Source: Pedobacter sp.
Lineage (GTDB): Bacteria > Bacteroidota > Bacteroidia > Sphingobacteriales > Sphingobacteriaceae
Reading direction: 5' to 3'
Length of the DNA: 32,124 bases
Assembly (NCBI GenBank): GCA_031179845.1
Contig: JAPSHM010000009.1
Coordinates: 1-32,124 of the forward strand
Translations under genes and position numbers: made by a program
Notes under the pieces: model-generated
Seen by the model: the letters and a program-made list of their open reading frames with translations, nothing else
Told to the model about the DNA's origin: nothing
Database searches by the model: none
Shown: one piece after another, positions 5,826-21,157 of the stretch
How positions within the stretch are numbered: position 1 is the first letter of the stretch
Layout: each line of letters opens with the position of its first letter

Positions 5826-8717
5826 TTAATTCATGAAGCTTCCATCACCTCGGCGAATCACGTCTTTATTTCCTCGTCCTCTCGCTCCGGTCCATTTTTG
5901 CAGGCGCATACTTAGCCGAAGCATAAAATAGCGACTAAGTGCATTCGACTTGGTATCCGTATATCCCCCGTCTTCTCGAATGTCACGATTTACGAAATTG
6001 TTTTGATTGAGTAAGTCAAAAGCTTGCAAAGTGACCTTCCCCCTGCGGTTAAGCAATTCTTTTTCCAAATAAGCATTAACAACAAAAGGGTTACTTGTAA
6101 CATTCGCATTGATACCACTTACGTAATTTTTGCTTGCACTATAACCAAACAGCCAGTCTTTAAAAAAATAAACTCTTCCATCTACGTTTAAAGCAATAGT
6201 GCTTTGTTTAACATCACGAAATTGTGGAACACTGTTTACAGATTTTGTATAGTTGTAAGATATGTTTGGATTGATTTCAAACCAATCATTGGGATTGATT
6301 CTTGGACCAAAACGCTCGATAAAAGTTTGTACGACATTCACATTCTTTTGCGAATCGTTCATTGAAATACGGTTATCATAACTAATAGACCCGCTAAATG
6401 CAAGATTATACCGCCTGTCATTCAACTGTTTATTGATGGAGTAATTCCCACTGATCTTGTAAACGCCATTCATATTCAAATATCTCGTTTCAGTGATAAA
6501 AACAGAATCAGGAAGTACGCTGGCATCAAGAATTGGCACATTATTTCTGATCACAGCATTATCTGTTAGTGACGCATTCAAATGTACTGAGTAATTTAGC
6601 TTCGCATTGGCTATGTAATTATCATATACTGCCCTGACACCATGTTGAAACGTGGCACTCAGGTCGGGATTACCTACAATAGGGTTTTGCGGGTTAGTCA
6701 CATCTCTTACGGGTTGAATCTGATCAAAAGTTGGTTCAACTGCATTTCCGGAATAGTTGAACGCAATCCTATGTTGTCTGGACCATAGATACTCAAATCT
6801 GGCAATAGGGACCATGTTGAAACTGCTTCTGCTGGTCGATGTTCCCAAGCTTACTTTAGTCCCTGAGAGCACGGACGGAATTGCCGTTACGCCCAGTGAA
6901 AAGCGAACCTTAGAAGTATTGCTTAGCCCATATCTGTAGTTTAAAGCGATGCGTCCTTGAGTAAATGAATAATCATAAATATTACTTAATGAATCAATAA
7001 TGCCGGTAGGATTTCCGTTTATGATATTTTTGGTGGTAGCGGTGTTATCATACCCATTGTAGTTTATTTGGGCATTCAATTCAAACTGGGTATTGGCAGT
7101 TAACGGTTCGGCAAACGTTAAACTTCCGCGGTAATTATCCTGCAAATTTTTTCTGGCAACAATCCTGTTCACCGCAGAATCGCGTTGTTCTGTTTCCGCT
7201 TCGTTCAAAAAATAAATGATCTTAGTATCCTGTTCCTGTTGCTGATCTTGATTATTACTGTTTAGATCAGCTTGAAAAGAGATGTTTCGTCTTGGTTTTT
7301 TGAATATATGCTGATAGAACACTGAGGTACCAAGTTGAGGTCTGGTATTTCTGCTATAATTTTGTCCTTCTCTGTTTTGATGTAAGAAACCTGTCTGACT
7401 AATTTTCGAAAGACTACTCGTATTGGCTAAAGTGTATCTTAGCGTTGGAACAATCCGCAAGAAATTGCTGGTATCTAAATTAAATTCAAGTTCTGCCTTA
7501 AAATTGTGATTCCTATTGATGTTATCACTTTCGATCAAGCTAAATGCATTGGTAAAATGGGTAACATTACCATTTACCGTATCACGGATTACAGTGGGTG
7601 TAACGGAGTAACTATCATTTAAAGAGTTAGTGTTGGTCGTCCTATAATCATAGTTAATGTTGTATTCGATCTTCTTGCTAATTTTATCACGAATGCTGAA
7701 TGATCCATTTCCGCTCGTCGTAGTTCCGCCACTTGCACTATTGTTTCCTCCTTGATTTCTTCCTCCATTGTCTCCACCTGCAACTCCATTGATCGTATTA
7801 TTATATCTTCCATTTAAACCGATGGTCTGATTTTTATTCACCCGGGTCGCAAACATTCCAGCTTCATAACGATCATTGTTTCCACCACCTACGTTCAGGT
7901 GTGCCATATTGCCTACTGATTTATCTTCGCGGGTAGTGATGTTTAAGATTTTTTCCGGATCCCCGTTTTTTATGCCTGTACGTGCTGCCTGATCTCCATA
8001 ATCATCAACGATTTGAATTCGATCAACTATCTCGGCCGGCAGATTCTTGATGGCATTTGCAAGATCACCACCAAGATATTCTTTTCCGTTCAATTTAGCT
8101 TTTGTAATGCTCTGTCCCTGATGTACCAGGGTTCCGTCATTTCCTACCTCCATGCCCTCCATTTTTTTCAAAAGCTCATCTACCGTAGAGTTGGCCCTTA
8201 CGACATAATCACTTGCCTTGTATTCTACAGTATCTGTTTTATAGGTAATTGAGGGTGTCCCATTGATCACAACAGTATTAAGCATATTCTTTTCTTCCTT
8301 CAATACAATGGGGTCCATTACTATCCTCGGAATCCTATCATTCTGCTTGAAAAGCATGACAGGTGTTTTGGTGAAACCTAAGCTTTGCACGACCAGCGTA
8401 TAAGTTGCCGATTTTACATTTTTGAAAACGAAAATGCCATCACTATTTGTAGCGGTTTTCAAAGTATCTTTATCGGAGGTTAGACTGACGGTTGCCCCAA
8501 TTACACCCAGATCTGTGCTGTCTTTTACAATTCCACTGATTTGCCTGGTTGGTAAAGGCGGATCTTCCACTTTTTTTTGAGATGGCTGCTGAGCTAATGC
8601 TCCGGAAAAGCAAAAGAGCATTAACAAAATGGCGACTAGTGTCTTGGGGTTTTTTCGGAATTCGGTTTGAATCGGCGCATTCAAATCACTGGTAATTACC
8701 CGATTATAATAATTCAT
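5826..8717 (-). CDS. Outer-membrane beta-barrel protein with carboxypeptidase-like N-domain
   Basis: This 963-residue protein has a signal peptide at about 22-43 behind an unusually long 20-residue N-terminal lead (no other Met start is available). Next comes a carboxypeptidase-regulatory-like beta domain (about 57-137: ISGIVKDSTDLGVIGATVSL), then a plug-like region (about 145-265), an Asn/Gly/Ser-rich segment (312-340), and a long stretch of alternating beta strands forming a barrel of the TonB-receptor/OMP_b-brl type. The C-terminus ends in a basic, non-aromatic tail rather than the usual final aromatic residue. It follows the secreted Gly-rich protein by 49 bases, so the two are likely one transcript. 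No substrate can be assigned, and no SusD partner is present. Confidence 0.88.
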   Translation of the reverse strand: MNYYNRVITSDLNAPIQTEFRKNPKTLVAILLMLFCFSGALAQQPSQKKVEDPPLPTRQISGIVKDSTDLGVIGATVSLTSDKDTLKTATNSDGIFVFKNVKSATYTLVVQSLGFTKTPVMLFKQNDRIPRIVMDPIVLKEEKNMLNTVVINGTPSITYKTDTVEYKASDYVVRANSTVDELLKKMEGMEVGNDGTLVHQGQSITKAKLNGKEYLGGDLANAIKNLPAEIVDRIQIVDDYGDQAARTGIKNGDPEKILNITTREDKSVGNMAHLNVGGGNNDRYEAGMFATRVNKNQTIGLNGRYNNTINGVAGGDNGGRNQGGNNSASGGTTTSGNGSFSIRDKISKKIEYNINYDYRTTNTNSLNDSYSVTPTVIRDTVNGNVTHFTNAFSLIESDNINRNHNFKAELEFNLDTSNFLRIVPTLRYTLANTSSLSKISQTGFLHQNREGQNYSRNTRPQLGTSVFYQHIFKKPRRNISFQADLNSNNQDQQQEQDTKIIYFLNEAETEQRDSAVNRIVARKNLQDNYRGSLTFAEPLTANTQFELNAQINYNGYDNTATTKNIINGNPTGIIDSLSNIYDYSFTQGRIALNYRYGLSNTSKVRFSLGVTAIPSVLSGTKVSLGTSTSRSSFNMVPIARFEYLWSRQHRIAFNYSGNAVEPTFDQIQPVRDVTNPQNPIVGNPDLSATFQHGVRAVYDNYIANAKLNYSVHLNASLTDNAVIRNNVPILDASVLPDSVFITETRYLNMNGVYKISGNYSINKQLNDRRYNLAFSGSISYDNRISMNDSQKNVNVVQTFIERFGPRINPNDWFEINPNISYNYTKSVNSVPQFRDVKQSTIALNVDGRVYFFKDWLFGYSASKNYVSGINANVTSNPFVVNAYLEKELLNRRGKVTLQAFDLLNQNNFVNRDIREDGGYTDTKSNALSRYFMLRLSMRLQKWTGARGRGNKDVIRRGDGSFMN

Positions 8718-8766
8718 TTGTGTGTTCGTATGGTTGAATGCGTTCGGTCTGGTCAGCGTTTATTAA

Positions 8767-9606
8767 TTACTTCTTCGCAAGCGTATATTTCCCCCAAAAG
8801 TCTGTAGGGCTTATCATTGCCTGAAAGTCCACTCCTCCACGGCCGCCAGATCCACCGCCACGAAAATTACCGCCGCCACCTCCGAAATTGCCCCGACCAC
8901 CTCCGCCGTCAAATCCAGGTAACTGTAATCCGTTGAGCTTTATATTATATGCGAACTCTTTGGGTGTTGCAGTGGAAATTCCCAGTTCAGTTAATGGGAT
9001 TGCAACTTCATAATAGAAGGTATTGTCTTTGTCAATATTCGCAAAGGCTTTGATACCATACTCATTGTAAATCGCTACCAAAGTATCCGTAGTTTTTTTA
9101 AATCCTTTCAATTTAATCTCTTTGGATGACTGCAACTGTGACTTTTGTCTGGCTACCATAAATGAATCCCGTTGCTTCTTATCCTGTGGGCGCCCCCCAC
9201 CTGGAAAGCCTGAACGACCTACCCTCCCGCCACCTTGTCCTCTACCGAACGGGGCAGCAATGGGATAGGTCAATGCGATACTTCCTTCTTCTTTTTTCTG
9301 GCCGTTGGGGTTAACAGAAAAAGTGATGCCTCCCGCCATTATTTTTGAATTATTTGTCAGATCTGAAGATTTAATAATTAAATAAAGATTATTATCGTCA
9401 TTACTAACAATATAGGAAAGGCTTGTACGCTTGTTCACCGAAAAATCTGAGTCCTTCCACTCAAAATTTTTGCCGTCAATTTTTATTGCATGCGGCGCAA
9501 ATATGCTAACTTCCTGTAGTTCATTGATTTTTTGAGCCTTGCCTGACAGGCCGAGGCCGATCAGCAAAACCGTACTGTATGCGATTTTGAGAATTTCTGA
9601 GTTCAT
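8767..9606 (-). CDS. Secreted Gly/Arg-rich protein with CBM9-like fold
   Basis: The 279-residue product has a signal peptide (about 1-25, ending GKAQ). Residues about 36-115 and 165-228 resemble halves of a CBM9/DOMON-like beta sandwich: IKIDGKNFEW, then a NNLYLIIKSSD strand, and later YYEVAIPLTELGI, a stretch typical of that fold. Two low-complexity insertions interrupt it: Gly/Arg/Pro-rich at about 119-140 and an RGG-like glycine tract at 233-258. The C-terminus (TDFWGKYTLAKK) closes the fold. It lies directly upstream of the outer-membrane barrel gene on the same strand. I do not know its function; attachment to a carbohydrate, heme or cell-surface partner would be compatible with the fold. 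Confidence 0.75.
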   Translation of the reverse strand: MNSEILKIAYSTVLLIGLGLSGKAQKINELQEVSIFAPHAIKIDGKNFEWKDSDFSVNKRTSLSYIVSNDDNNLYLIIKSSDLTNNSKIMAGGITFSVNPNGQKKEEGSIALTYPIAAPFGRGQGGGRVGRSGFPGGGRPQDKKQRDSFMVARQKSQLQSSKEIKLKGFKKTTDTLVAIYNEYGIKAFANIDKDNTFYYEVAIPLTELGISTATPKEFAYNIKLNGLQLPGFDGGGGRGNFGGGGGNFRGGGSGGRGGVDFQAMISPTDFWGKYTLAKK

Positions 9607-9783
9607 AGTTCGGTGTTCAAATGCGATATTGAATTTAAGACTGACTAAAATGATTTAGGTTTAATGTCTATTTTTCTAAATTATTTTTACACTCCTTATC
9701 TTTCTATCAAGTTGCACACGAATTAAACACAAAATCCAGTCTATTGGAAATTGTTATCTTAATTTGTTACATAAGTACTTCAG

Positions 9784-9829
9784 TTAATCGGTTTTGCGGA
9801 TTAAGATGCAACTGTCAGGCTGTTGCATC
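9784..9829 (-). repeat. Two adjacent hairpins at the end of cydB
   Basis: On the minus strand GATGCAAC (9829-9822) pairs with GTTGCATC (9812-9805), and directly after it TTAATC (9804-9799) pairs with GATTAA (9789-9784). Both have 9-base loops. The first spans the cydB stop codon. No T-run follows, so this is not a standard terminator, but it may stabilise or end the cyd transcript. Confidence 0.5.
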
Positions 9830-10828
9830 CTTCCGTTTTTGGAAGATATAAATTAAATAGACCAGTGCAGGTAGAATAAATAAACTTCCGATAAGCAGGG
9901 CGTAGCCTAAAGACAAGATCGTTTTAGCTTGCCCCTGATGCGCGAGCAGAGATAAGTTATCCCCATTCTTAAGCAATACAATATCTGGAAAATGGCTATA
10001 CGTGGCTGCAAAAAGAATCATAGACACCTGAAAACCGGCAAGTAATCGCAAAAGTATGGGCTTATTGTGATTTAAGGCATAGAACATGGCGATCAGCGAC
10101 AAACTCGCCGCGGTAATTGCAATTAAACCAGGTGTATCCCCTAATATCCATGTAGTTAATGGAATGCCATCAAAATATGCAGCGACAAAAACCAGTGCCC
10201 CACAGCCCATTACGACGAAAATGGCACGTTTCGCTTTTTCTATAAAATGGGTCCTATCGCCGCCCTCTTCTGTTTGGCCAATGATGAAAATAGTGGCTAA
10301 AAAGCCACATATACTAACTGTAAAAATACCAACTGCAACAGAGAACCAACTTAACCAGCTAAACACATAAGCCGATATGAAATCATTTGCAAGGGGATCG
10401 ATCTGTCCGGATACAGAACTGGCAGCGATAACACCAAGAAAAAAAGGGGTAATTAAACTTGAATATACAAAGATAGGAGTATAAACCTTTTGCATATCGT
10501 CCTTTACAGCATCATAATTTCTGAAAACAAAAGCTGTTCCTCTCGCAATAATACCAAGTAGCATACAAACCAGTGGAATATGCAGGTAAACGGAAATAGT
10601 GGTATAAATTTTTGGAAATCCAACAAAGAGAATCACAATTGCAATGATTAACCACATGTGGTTCGCTTCCCAAATCGGGCCGATCGCCTTGTACATCGTT
10701 CTACGGGTTTTGGCCTTGTTGGCTTTAGTTGTAAACAACTCAATGATACCAGCACCGAAATCCGCTCCTCCAAGCAGGATGTATAATAGGATAGCCATCC
10801 AAAGAAAAACAATAACTACATATATCAT
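9815..10828 (-). CDS. cydB: Cytochrome bd quinol oxidase subunit II
   Basis: The 337-residue protein is almost entirely membrane-embedded, with about eight or nine spans. CydB landmarks are GGADFGAG (about 20-27) and GPIWEANHMWL (about 50-60) in the first third. CydB pairs with CydA in the bd-type terminal oxidase, which oxidises quinol and reduces oxygen to water with high affinity, without pumping protons. The ATG at 10828 is 4 bases beyond the cydA stop, so translation is probably coupled. No small cydX-like frame was found after it. A pair of hairpins overlaps its stop codon. cydDC assembly genes are not in the window. Confidence 0.95.
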   Translation of the reverse strand: MIYVVIVFLWMAILLYILLGGADFGAGIIELFTTKANKAKTRRTMYKAIGPIWEANHMWLIIAIVILFVGFPKIYTTISVYLHIPLVCMLLGIIARGTAFVFRNYDAVKDDMQKVYTPIFVYSSLITPFFLGVIAASSVSGQIDPLANDFISAYVFSWLSWFSVAVGIFTVSICGFLATIFIIGQTEEGGDRTHFIEKAKRAIFVVMGCGALVFVAAYFDGIPLTTWILGDTPGLIAITAASLSLIAMFYALNHNKPILLRLLAGFQVSMILFAATYSHFPDIVLLKNGDNLSLLAHQGQAKTILSLGYALLIGSLFILPALVYLIYIFQKRKDATA

Positions 10829-16866: not shown

Positions 16867-18570
16867 TTAGCTGGTTTCATCTTCTTTGACGAAACCGAAG
16901 GTTTTTTGAATAATTAATGAGATGGATACCACAAGAAAACAGCCTATAACATTCAGCCATAAATAAGCGATGATGTCAGCCTGTCCAACTGCAATGATGA
17001 TCGCCTCCGTAAGTAAGGCTGCAATAAACACCGCCTTTCCATTCACCTGTTTTACATAAAAAGCGACCAGGAAAACACCAAGTATGGTTCCATAGATGTA
17101 CGAACCTAATATATTCACTGCTTCTAGCAGATTGCCAATCTTACTGGCATACAAAGCCATTATAATACAGACAACACCCCAAAAAACTGTTGCAAGCCTT
17201 GAGGCCTGCAAATACTGATGATCTGTCGCATCCTTTTTGATCAGTCGTTTATAGATATCGATCACTGTAGTAGATGCCAAAGAGTTGAGCGCACTTGCTG
17301 TAGAGCCCATCGACGCTAAAAAAATGATTGCAATCAGTAGGCCAATCAGTCCTGTAGGGAGGTACTGTGTAACGAAGCTTAAAAAAATGTAGTTGTTGTC
17401 CTTAGTATTGGCTTCCTTATCATTTATCTGCATCAAATCTGTCACCCGCTTTCGAATTGACTTTTCTTTTTCGTCAGCAAGCTGAAGGGCTACCCGCTGT
17501 TGATCAATTAGCTTTTGATCATCCGCATCCAGAGCAGCATTCAGCTTATGTAAATCATCCTGCTTCTGATCAAATGCCTCATTGTAATCCAACTTAATTT
17601 TTTGTAACTGAGGCGCATATTCGCTGTTTTCCAGTTTTTTCAGTTCGAAACTGTTAAAAAATATTGGCGGACGGTTGTACTGATAAAAAGCAAAAACGAG
17701 TACGCCAATAAGCAAGATCAGGAACTGCATAGGTATTTTTACCAAACCATTCATCAACAAACCCAAGCGACTCTGACTAACGGAAGCACCCGACAGATAC
17801 CGCCCTACCTGGCTTTGGTCTGTACCAAAATAAGACAACTGTAAAAAGAATCCGCCGATTAAACCTGTCCAAACAGTGTACTGATTGCTGAGATCAAACT
17901 TAAAGTCTATCGCATTCGTTCTACCCATTTTTCCCGCAATACTAATGGCCCTGCCAAAACTAACATCACCCGGCAGCAGGTGAACCACCATTATTCCAGC
18001 AGCAAATAATCCACAGAAAATGATGCTCATTTGAAGCACCTGCGTATAGGACACAGCCTTAGTTCCACCGTATACTGTATAAAATATAACCAAGCTTCCG
18101 ATGAAAAGTGTAGTATAAGTAGTATTGATGTTGAGGATTGTGGATAAAATAATGGAAGGAGCGTAAATAGTTATGCCGGTCGACAGCCCTCGTTGAATCA
18201 AAAATAGGAAAGCAGTTAATGCCCTTGTATTCAAGTCAAACCGTTGCTCAAGATATTCATATGCAGTATAAACTTTCAACCGATGGAATATGGGAACAAA
18301 AGTTATACACAGCACGATCATGGCCAATGGCAGTCCAAAATAAAATTGCACAAAACTCATTCCTGAGGAGTAAGCCAAACCCGGCGCAGATAGAAAGGTT
18401 ATGGCACTAGCCTGTGTTGCCATTACCGAAAGGCATACATGGTACCAAGGCAGTGATTGATTTCCCAGCAAATAACCTTCGATATTTTGGGTACCCCGGC
18501 TTTTATAAACTCCGTAGACCACAATTACAATGAGGGTGACAACTAATACTGTCCAGTCTATATTACTCAT
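16867..18570 (-). CDS. Sodium:solute symporter (SSS family)
   Basis: From the ATG at 18570 the product is 567 residues with about 13 membrane spans. SSS landmarks are the IEGYLLGNQSLPWY lead into span 2, the TQASAITFLSAPG helix break and the GGTKAVSYTQVLQ segment. These carriers take up sugars, acids or nucleosides with sodium. Between two spans (residues about 300-394) lies a charged, helical insertion rich in Lys, Asp, Gln and Leu, not part of the standard SSS core. The frame is open to a TTG at 18621, but the ATG overlaps the stop of the upstream 47-codon gene in an ATGA arrangement, which fixes the start. The substrate is unknown; co-transcription with a deacetylase suggests an amino-sugar derivative, which is inference. 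Confidence 0.9.
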   Translation of the reverse strand: MSNIDWTVLVVTLIVIVVYGVYKSRGTQNIEGYLLGNQSLPWYHVCLSVMATQASAITFLSAPGLAYSSGMSFVQFYFGLPLAMIVLCITFVPIFHRLKVYTAYEYLEQRFDLNTRALTAFLFLIQRGLSTGITIYAPSIILSTILNINTTYTTLFIGSLVIFYTVYGGTKAVSYTQVLQMSIIFCGLFAAGIMVVHLLPGDVSFGRAISIAGKMGRTNAIDFKFDLSNQYTVWTGLIGGFFLQLSYFGTDQSQVGRYLSGASVSQSRLGLLMNGLVKIPMQFLILLIGVLVFAFYQYNRPPIFFNSFELKKLENSEYAPQLQKIKLDYNEAFDQKQDDLHKLNAALDADDQKLIDQQRVALQLADEKEKSIRKRVTDLMQINDKEANTKDNNYIFLSFVTQYLPTGLIGLLIAIIFLASMGSTASALNSLASTTVIDIYKRLIKKDATDHQYLQASRLATVFWGVVCIIMALYASKIGNLLEAVNILGSYIYGTILGVFLVAFYVKQVNGKAVFIAALLTEAIIIAVGQADIIAYLWLNVIGCFLVVSISLIIQKTFGFVKEDETS

Positions 18571-18710
18571 TGGAAATACCTGGTAAAAGCGTAGAAAACT
18601 AAGATTAGCAAAACCAGCCAACCAATGAGAAGGCGGTAGAACTGTTGCCAGGTTTTGACAAAGGGAGGAAGATCCTGTCCGTCATCTTTCAATTGCTTAC
18701 GCTCGATCAT
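18567..18710 (-). CDS. 47-residue single-span membrane protein coupled to the symporter
   Basis: I found this by reading the gap between the deacetylase and symporter genes. ATG at 18710, 47 codons, TGA at 18569-18567. The product has a charged N-terminal segment (MIERKQLKDDGQDLPPF), an aromatic region (TWQQFYRLL) and one strong membrane span at about residues 28-42 (GWLVLLILVFYAF) ending in RYFQ. The stop overlaps the symporter ATG in an ATGA junction, and the start lies 11 bases after the deacetylase stop, so the three are probably one translationally coupled unit. A small accessory subunit of the symporter is the simplest reading. I recognise no named family. Confidence 0.75.
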   Translation of the reverse strand: MIERKQLKDDGQDLPPFVKTWQQFYRLLIGWLVLLILVFYAFTRYFQ

Positions 18711-18721
18711 CTGGTTACAGT

Positions 18722-21157
18722 TTATTTCTTATGAGACAGCATATTCACAAACAAACGGTATGCACCCGGCACACCAGCAGGCAACTGCCTGAAAAAAGAA
18801 ATCCCCGTATAGATATACCGACCTTTACCATAATCCGCTACAATCAGTGATCCCGTTTTTGGACTCTCGCCCGTATCATTGATACTCAAGATTTGTTTAT
18901 ATCGCTGATCTGGATCGGTCACAAAATACAAACCACGTTCCTGTATCCAACCTTCGAAATCTTTCGCAGTAATTTTATTCGGAAAATTTAAAACCGGATT
19001 TTCAGGTTCGAGGATTCTAACTTTCGAATCTTCTTCAGTAACCCTGTCGCGCGACAACCTGAATGGGTAAGGACCCAATTTATCGGTCTTCAACGGTGAG
19101 TTTACATTGTATTGAACTAATAATGTCCCACCATTTTCCACATAGCGCATCAAAACTGGTTGCATGCTTTTGATCTGATCATTCACATTATACAACCTGA
19201 TTCCCGTGACGATGGCGTCAAAAGCCGACAAGTCTGCGCTCACTACCTGGCGCTCCGTCAAGTTTACCACTTCATAGCCGATCTGCTTCAATGATTCCGG
19301 CACCAGATCTCCTGCACCAGTAATATAGCCAATTCGTTTACCCGCAAATTTCAGATCAATCTTATCAAGCCTGGCTTTTGCAATCGGGAAAAGTGTTTGC
19401 ACCGGAATGTGTTCGTAACTAATTACACGCAAGCCTTTGTTATGCACTTTCCCATCAACTGCTATTTCGAGTTGCAGATCACCGCCTGTTGTACTTCCAG
19501 AAGGTGTAACCGTAAATAAATAGGATTGCTCATCTCCTTTCTTAGCCAGTTTGAAGTCCACTTCTTTAGGAATGACGCTCCAACCTAGCGGCACTTTAGG
19601 CGTTAACACTCCTACTGCGTTGTCTTTGAAACTTTTCAATTGAACGGCTATATTTTTAGGTTCATTGCCATTGAAGATAAACGCCTTTTCCGAAAGAGTT
19701 GCAGTAACCGGTGGTGCGATCACTAAAGGTTGATAAATTTCCCCTCTCACCTGATCCGTATATTTAAATACCACTGCCCGTTTCTTTTCGATCACCTGGT
19801 CGCCAATTGTAATCTTAAATACAGCCAACAGACCCGGCTTATTTTCAGGCAGACCAATATTTGAAAGCGAATCGACTACAAAACTTCCCAGCAAATGCGG
19901 TTTTTCAAGCCAGTATGGTTGCGTTATATCGGAATTTGCCGTGGAAATCTCCTTTTCCTGGGATACAAGCTCATTTGGCGACAAAATAAACGAAGCTCCA
20001 CTGTTCAATTCTTCCAGTTTTACCGTTAAGGGATAATCAGATTTTACTCTTGCAATGCCCTGAACCTTTAGAGTAACGGCCTGGTTTAATGTATAGGATG
20101 AGTTTAAAGCCGTGCTTTCAAACCAAATACCCATACAAGCAAGGATCAAATCGTCCAGAAGTCCATGTTTAAACGGCTTCCCATCTACCAACCGCTTCAA
20201 CTGCAATAACTTGGTTACTGATGCAGAAGGATCTGCTGCATTATATTCCGTATTGATTTTAGACAGTAAATCCATAGCAGCTTTGCTGTCAGGCGTTCTT
20301 TTCAAGGAAAAGTCAATACCTTCAAATAGATCGACAGCGGCATATTCGCCTGCTACGGGCTTAAAGAATTCGATCGATGTGCCACGTTGCCTTGCTGAGC
20401 CGAAACCCTGACTTCGATGATTGGATCTGCTTTCCGCTGCGATTTCGCCATAGCTCTTACCTAAAAGAGGATTGTATAGCCCAACGTCAATTTTCAACTG
20501 GTCATTAGCGGTGGTATTGTTCCCCCCAAAATTGAAGGTATTCCAAACCAGCCTCTTAGCTTGCCAAGGTTTTACAAAAATCAATTGTTCTGGAAACTGC
20601 TTTGGATCAGCAGCTGCCGCAAACGCTTCATGCGCGAGAATTGCGGAACCTGAATGGTGACCGTGGCCAGCACGTGCATCCTCGGGAAACCGGGTAATGA
20701 TTACGTCTGGCTGAAATTTACGAATCACCCAAACCACATCAGAAAGTATTTTTGCCTTGTTCCAGATTTTGAAGCTTTCTTCAGGGTTTTTAGAAAATCC
20801 AAAATCGTTTGCTCTGGTGAAGAACTGTTCGGCACCATCTGTTCCACGCGCAGCGAGCAATTCCTGTGTACGGATCAGCCCGAGTAATTCCGCCTGTTCA
20901 TTGCCAATCAGGTTTTGTCCACCATCTCCCCTTGTTAAAGATAAATAACCAGTTCTAACTTTCTTCTCCTTGGCCAGGTAAGCAAGCAGCCGGGTATTTT
21001 CATCATCGGGATGTGCCGCGATGTAGAGAACACTACCAGATACATTTAACGCTTCCAAGCCTTGTTTAATCTCCGCAGCATTGAGCTGTGGCATATTTTG
21101 TGCATTGGTAGCAAATGCGATACTGGCAAATAAGAGCAGAAAAGATAGAAACTTCAT
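18722..21157 (-). CDS. PIG-L family deacetylase, exported, multidomain
   Basis: The 811-residue protein has a signal peptide (about 1-19, ending TNAQ). The PIG-L domain follows with its zinc motif AHPDDE (H48-E53 region) and the second histidine cluster GHGHHSGSAILAHEAF near 163-178. PIG-L enzymes remove acetyl groups from N-acetyl sugars or related thiol-sugar conjugates; exported forms like this one are not the cytoplasmic BshB/MshB enzymes. A middle beta-sandwich resembling NEW3 domains (GWSVIPKEVDF, around 520) and a C-terminal Rossmann/amidotransferase-like domain (IGYITGAGDLVPESL to the end, about 605-800) complete it. It leads a unit with the 47-residue protein and the symporter, suggesting that its product is taken up by that carrier. 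Confidence 0.85.
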   Translation of the reverse strand: MKFLSFLLLFASIAFATNAQNMPQLNAAEIKQGLEALNVSGSVLYIAAHPDDENTRLLAYLAKEKKVRTGYLSLTRGDGGQNLIGNEQAELLGLIRTQELLAARGTDGAEQFFTRANDFGFSKNPEESFKIWNKAKILSDVVWVIRKFQPDVIITRFPEDARAGHGHHSGSAILAHEAFAAAADPKQFPEQLIFVKPWQAKRLVWNTFNFGGNNTTANDQLKIDVGLYNPLLGKSYGEIAAESRSNHRSQGFGSARQRGTSIEFFKPVAGEYAAVDLFEGIDFSLKRTPDSKAAMDLLSKINTEYNAADPSASVTKLLQLKRLVDGKPFKHGLLDDLILACMGIWFESTALNSSYTLNQAVTLKVQGIARVKSDYPLTVKLEELNSGASFILSPNELVSQEKEISTANSDITQPYWLEKPHLLGSFVVDSLSNIGLPENKPGLLAVFKITIGDQVIEKKRAVVFKYTDQVRGEIYQPLVIAPPVTATLSEKAFIFNGNEPKNIAVQLKSFKDNAVGVLTPKVPLGWSVIPKEVDFKLAKKGDEQSYLFTVTPSGSTTGGDLQLEIAVDGKVHNKGLRVISYEHIPVQTLFPIAKARLDKIDLKFAGKRIGYITGAGDLVPESLKQIGYEVVNLTERQVVSADLSAFDAIVTGIRLYNVNDQIKSMQPVLMRYVENGGTLLVQYNVNSPLKTDKLGPYPFRLSRDRVTEEDSKVRILEPENPVLNFPNKITAKDFEGWIQERGLYFVTDPDQRYKQILSINDTGESPKTGSLIVADYGKGRYIYTGISFFRQLPAGVPGAYRLFVNMLSHKK

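Follow-up and report, generated by a model that had tools for sequence, protein, structure and literature searches.

The window analyzed here is a 32,124-nucleotide stretch of a Pedobacter contig, taken from a draft genome (G000) of 392 contigs that is 75% complete. On its minus strand, genes for a PIG-L family deacetylase and a sodium:solute symporter of the SSS/SSF family (hereafter SSS) flank a small open reading frame, P0001 (Table 1). The genes run in the order PIG-L deacetylase, an 11-base spacer (18711-18721), small frame, SSS symporter. Read from ATG to TGA, the small frame encodes the 47 residues MIERKQLKDDGQDLPPFVKTWQQFYRLLIGWLVLLILVFYAFTRYFQ, and its stop codon (18569-18567) shares the tetranucleotide ATGA with the symporter start codon (18570-18568). 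The original prediction of a 47-residue frame, set 11 bases from the PIG-L gene and overlapping the symporter gene at ATGA, is borne out by the sequence and its translation.

Table 1. Genes and sequence features at the P0001 locus, in window coordinates.
Feature	Position	Strand	Basis
SSS/SSF sodium:solute symporter, 567 aa	16867..18570	-	PF00474, TIGR00813, PDB relatives, AlphaFold2 model
Symporter helical hairpin insert, residues ~307-383, TM7/TM8	17422..17652	-	Model helices 307-314, 319-348, 352-383
ATGA, overlapping symporter start and small-gene stop codons	18567..18570	-	Sequence
Small single-span membrane protein P0001, 47 aa	18567..18710	-	Translation, homologs, pN/pS 0.178
Predicted transmembrane helix of P0001, residues 27-43	18582..18632	-	Hydrophobic core; conservation periodic at 100 degrees per residue
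LPPFVKTW motif of P0001, residues 14-21, adjoining the membrane span	18648..18671	-	Alignment, 79 sequences
PIG-L family deacetylase, 811 aa, operon neighbor	18722..21157	-	PF02585, E 5.1e-17

The symporter matches PF00474 with 125 bits (cut-off 22.8, E 4.7e-36) and TIGR00813 with a score of 245.6 (cut-off 184). An upstream TTG (18621), given as its start by the mechanical list of reading frames, was rejected because homology places the start at 18570; the symporter query sequences began at 18573 and thus carried one extra N-terminal residue, which left the results otherwise unaffected. From an AlphaFold2 model of the protein (mean pLDDT 82.6, pTM 0.78) we read 13 transmembrane helices, TM0 to TM12. 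Solved transporters of the SSS family, SiaT and vSGLT among them, are sequence relatives, and the subfamily found in the window differs from them in having a hairpin of ~80 residues between TM7 and TM8 and what appears to be a dedicated small partner gene. The hairpin splits the Pfam match in two pieces and is presumably periplasmic, if the topology equals that of other SSS carriers.

Distribution and conservation of the small gene

At E up to 0.1, homologs of P0001 turned up in 64 of 148 genomes, the source genome among them; the weakest of these matches are probably due to chance. We take as chance those of two genomes without a symporter match (G108 and G117; E 0.064 and 0.094), which lie inside frames of 363 and 661 residues. 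A narrow profile, A1, applied across the phylum with an E cut-off of 0.01, matched 41 of 395 genomes (again including the source genome). A scan of genome_contigs returned 283 pattern matches, of which 125 were confirmed and 80 kept. Besides Pedobacter, the genera represented are Sphingobacterium, Daejeonella, Nubsella, Dyadobacter, Telluribacter, Arcicella, Fulvivirga, and Roseivirga, and the small gene also occurs in single bins titled Krumholzibacteriia, Melioribacteraceae, and Thermoanaerobaculales. A search of plasmids for the small gene gave no match.

Two of the checks named for the original prediction, conservation of the frame at syntenic loci and dN/dS below 1, came out in its favor. 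All 29 further loci of the same genus (best matches) keep the frame and the motif LPPFVKxWxQFY, with a PIG-L gene upstream, the symporter gene downstream, and the ATGA overlap. Across 38 disjoint pairs of loci, chosen for symporter N-termini at least 85% identical, pN/pS was 0.178 for the small frame and 1.00, 1.91, 1.00, 0.345, and 2.17 for the other five frames. The first 200 symporter codons of the same pairs gave 0.054, and the small protein therefore evolves faster than its neighbor. Other estimates of dN/dS for the small gene had medians of 0.28 (516 pairs) and 0.20 (269 pairs); a set of 42 disjoint pairs, with a pooled value of 0.52, included saturated pairs from distant species and was superseded by the pairs chosen on symporter identity. 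Judged by its substitutions, the small frame is a real gene under selection at the protein level.

Alignment of 79 member sequences with lengths of 30-51 residues (A2) gave the consensus LPPFxKSWxQxYxLxxxxLxxLIxLFYxFTxxF. Y25 is invariant, and conservation reaches at least 90% at W21 and I36; the weighted frequencies of P15, P16, and W21 are 0.83, 0.78, and 0.96, respectively. The N-terminal half is poorly conserved. Over residues 21-46, conservation follows a period of 100 degrees per residue to an extent reached by none of 20,000 permutations, and W21, Y25, L28, L32, L35/I36, F39, T43, and F46 form a conserved helix face; Y40 and F42 are conserved yet lie off this main face. The distribution of lysine and arginine around the span depends on the flanks compared. 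With an N-terminal flank of 14 residues set against ~4 C-terminal residues, the N side has more in 60 of the 79 sequences and the same number in 19, whereas with equal flanks of four it has fewer in 47, the same number in 25, and more in 7; a claim of N-in orientation was withdrawn on account of the latter count. One group of Pedobacter loci (L096, L100, L101, L104, and L108) encodes a 30-residue form, in L096 MENYRSFYRFLIGWLIFLILIFYAFTKYFQ, which lacks both the PP motif and W21. Going by this short form, the essential part seems to be the helix by itself.

The small protein is accounted for by no Pfam or NCBIfam family. P0001 itself matched no model of either collection at E up to 1, and the 79 members matched five Pfam and three NCBIfam families weakly, one to three members each, with a best E of 0.00089 and with DUF2976 in 3 of the 79. 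Among PDB chains, searched by profile to an E of 10, no match was credible (best E 1.6).

Linkage to one symporter subfamily

We then examined how closely the small gene follows the symporter. At distinct SSS loci, a small gene lies immediately upstream in 151 of 159 by profile match, a proportion that is inflated, given that profile A2 was partly built from these loci and that many of them were fetched through the small protein. The eight misses are G098, which has the symporter and PIG-L genes and no recognizable small gene; five loci of the Arcicella type; one symporter fragment in the Thermoanaerobaculales bin (G535); and L279, where a short frame can be read by eye. In a separate reading of loci by regular expression, six small genes (L096, L100, L101, L104, L108, and L160) were overlooked and read by eye, and one false match arose, at the paralog L190.

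Two less biased sets point the same way. First, of 99 genomes searched, 73 have a symporter match at E up to 1e-100, and 37 of these have either no P0001 match or, in one case, a weak one. When 20 of these 37 symporter loci were fetched, 19 proved by eye to carry an upstream small frame of like design, frequently a short form ending in FYYLFTKFWA. Second, in the 92 genomes of a Flavobacteriaceae-like family (that of G208), 37 have the symporter at 1e-100 and 25 have a small-protein profile match at 0.001; all 25 fall within the 37, and none of the 55 genomes without the symporter has one (Fisher p 8e-14). The remaining 12 symporter genomes have a diverged short frame in the same position, as read by eye, and 21 of the 25 small genes adjoin the symporter gene. 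In 14 of the 15 Flavobacteriaceae-like loci read (L177, at 8071-9924, and L267-L280), small gene and symporter share a reading frame and are separated by one stop codon and 0-1 codon.

Neither paralogous SSS genes nor genomes without this symporter had a match to the small gene. Upstream of 36 paralogous SSS genes from five genomes that do have the small gene, none was detected (best E 0.13); these were all 5 paralogs of G000, all 10 each of G026 and G012, all 6 of G536, and 5 of the 8 of G208. Three further symporter regions (L193, L194, and L199) were left out of this set, and separate scans of L193 and L199 gave no match. Among seven relatives lacking the symporter at 1e-30, two of which are 80-83% complete, none carries the small gene (best E 0.058).

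A probable accessory subunit of the symporter

The accessory role put forward in the original prediction is supported by four observations: the small gene co-occurs with one SSS subfamily, usually adjoins the symporter gene, is under purifying selection, and encodes a helix conserved on one side. We consider it likely, from comparative sequence evidence, that the small protein is a dedicated single-span accessory subunit of the adjoining symporter. Against this stand G098, where symporter and PIG-L genes occur without a recognizable small gene; G535, in which the small gene lies between PIG-L and BshC genes with no symporter adjoining; and the poorly conserved N-terminal half, together with the 30-residue Pedobacter form that has neither W21 nor the PP motif. 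In such a complex the conserved helix face would pack against the membrane domain of the symporter, and the docked helix, acting on the symporter as MAP17 acts on human SGLT2, might aid its folding, insertion, stability, or transport cycle.

A comparable pairing of an SSS-fold transporter with a small single-span protein is that of human SGLT2 or SGLT1 with the auxiliary subunit MAP17 (PDZK1IP1). According to passages of two papers, SGLT2 needs MAP17, whose single helix contacts TM13 of the transporter (PMC10803289; PMC9616851), and a passage of the former favors a role in folding and localization over one in the transport step (PMC10803289). As in MAP17, we find one transmembrane helix in the small protein, with a hydrophobic core at residues 27-43 and conservation on one face. 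However, MAP17 is a human protein that binds TM13, the 14th helix of the SGLTs, whereas the symporter subfamily of the window has 13 helices as read from the model. Because these are TM0 to TM12, the symporter model offers no TM13 to bind, and the small helix would have to dock at another site or might itself occupy that place. No homology to MAP17 was detected when the 79 members were scanned with Pfam or when PDB chains were searched by profile (E limit 10).

Other small membrane proteins encoded beside SSS genes are known from bacteria: YjcH (DUF485) with ActP, YhdT (DUF997) with PanF, DUF3311 with MctP, and the small subunit DUF4212. These partners resemble the present case in gene arrangement and differ in being larger, with two or more spans. 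None of the 79 members matched DUF485, DUF997, DUF3311, or DUF4212 in Pfam and NCBIfam searches at E up to 0.01. For DUF3311, a passage of one paper places the gene within the MctP gene context (PMC9100948). The earlier statement that few small proteins are described as partners of SSS carriers is fair, although such partners, MAP17 among them, are already known as a kind; the small-protein family itself is new and matches none of them. Our literature search, which covered open-licence PMC papers, found no paper on this pair of small protein and symporter.

A protein of 30-51 residues that has no family in Pfam or NCBIfam accompanies one class of sodium symporters in many Bacteroidota and in a few bins with other titles. 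If these symporters require it as a subunit, studies that omit the small protein would be missing a component, as was the case for SGLT2 until MAP17 was recognized. If our reading is correct, the pair would also offer a bacterial system for studying how one additional helix contributes to an SSS-fold transporter.

We also modeled the read-through fusion of small protein and symporter from a Flavobacteriaceae-like locus with AlphaFold2 (mean pLDDT 81.6, pTM 0.80). Its best fold relative is SiaT (5nva; Foldseek E 4.1e-22). The small helix reached a block-mean pLDDT of only 49-61 and was not placed. Mutual information over 145 pairs (effective number 54.7), a measure confounded here by phylogeny, mostly linked F24 with symporter residues 148-174 and L32 with residues 270-276. 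One structural variant would make the small protein a detached fourteenth helix in a TM13-like position, so that the two genes encode a split SSS transporter. It would require a helix oriented N-in/C-out, and the charge counts vary with flank length; we regard this variant as unlikely.

Separated copies and alternative roles

In some genomes the small gene and the symporter gene are apart. Five copies from Arcicella and related Cytophagales (L074, L075, L078, L083, and L099) have no symporter or PIG-L match in the flanks examined, the downstream flank of L074 covering only ~50 bases. In the same genomes the symporter gene is on another contig, with no small gene within up to 600 bases upstream (304 in one). 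In four related Flavobacteriaceae-like genomes (G171, G183, G197, and G241), the small gene is ~15 kb from the symporter gene. With all pairs pooled, pN/pS was 0.239 for the five Arcicella-type copies and 0.142 for the four Flavobacteriaceae-like ones. Because the separated copies remain under selection, the small protein can, by this measure, act in trans.

Such copies would also fit a protein that only shares an operon with the symporter and has other targets too, be it a general membrane chaperone, an insertase helper, or a stress peptide; tiny single-span proteins often act in these capacities. Co-occurrence with a single symporter subfamily, and absence upstream of the 36 paralogous SSS genes in five genomes, weigh against a general function, which we judge quite improbable.

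The small protein could instead serve the PIG-L enzyme as a membrane anchor or export partner, with the symporter a mere neighbor. Of the 152 symporter loci with 1.4 kb or more of upstream sequence, 116 matched the PIG-L protein of the window. At one Flavobacteriaceae-like locus, L177, a different and shorter PIG-L gene (6205-7071, minus strand; 289 residues; PF02585, E 2.7e-23) lies ~1 kb upstream on the opposite strand. In the Thermoanaerobaculales bin (G535; L077 on contig C100 and L228 on contig C156) the order is a DUF2911-like gene, PIG-L, small gene, and BshC, so that the small gene is beside PIG-L without an adjacent symporter gene; the symporter start is on a different contig, which opens with the end of a BshC gene. 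However, at 32 loci small gene and symporter occur with no match to the PIG-L protein of the window in the examined flank; a position between these two families, which the original prediction proposed to check, is not the rule. Pfam found no PIG-L protein among 33 neighboring frames at 18 such loci, all Flavobacteriaceae-like. For the 72 frames at 13 others, PIG-L was absent from the families listed (25 of 105, each with at least two frames), and at most a single frame could still be PIG-L. G098, moreover, keeps PIG-L and symporter genes without the small gene. The PIG-L gene is an operon neighbor and not an obligate partner of the small protein, and a role centered on the enzyme is very improbable.

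A further alternative is a leader frame, translated only to set up re-initiation at the symporter start through ATGA, with a product that has no job of its own. The short frame sits at a fixed place, and ATGA overlaps are present at 120 of the 151 symporter loci with a small gene. The same count favors the translational coupling of the original prediction, which is nonetheless dispensable, as the gene is apart from the symporter gene in the five Arcicella-type and four Flavobacteriaceae-like genomes. A leader of this type is hard to reconcile with the selection on amino acids, with helix conservation confined to one face, with the selected copies away from the symporter gene, or with the 31 of 151 loci that lack the overlap, and we give it very little credence. 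A chance open frame, for which only the short length speaks, is refuted by the low pN/pS of the small frame set against the other five frames, along with its homologs, helix periodicity, and recurrence at symporter loci, and its probability is practically nil.

Neighboring genes and possible substrates

The accessory subunit remains our preferred reading, and the genes around it bear on what the symporter may carry. The BshC gene after the small gene in G535 raised a link to bacillithiol. BshC was found in all 56 genomes picked for a small-gene or symporter match (the symporter was checked in only part of them). It was also present in 22 of 26 genomes without a symporter match at 1e-100, one of which (G036) has the small gene and a symporter fragment; the bacillithiol link is therefore uninformative.

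The N-terminal stretch of the 811-residue PIG-L deacetylase resembles a signal peptide by eye, and the enzyme is thus probably exported, in contrast to the BshB enzymes of bacillithiol synthesis. In operons of the Pedobacter type, this deacetylase might process a compound that the symporter imports. At L177, a glucosamine-6-phosphate-isomerase-type gene (7115-7876, minus strand; PF01182, E 1.2e-21) adjoins the small gene and symporter, and together with the short PIG-L gene there it hints at an amino-sugar substrate.
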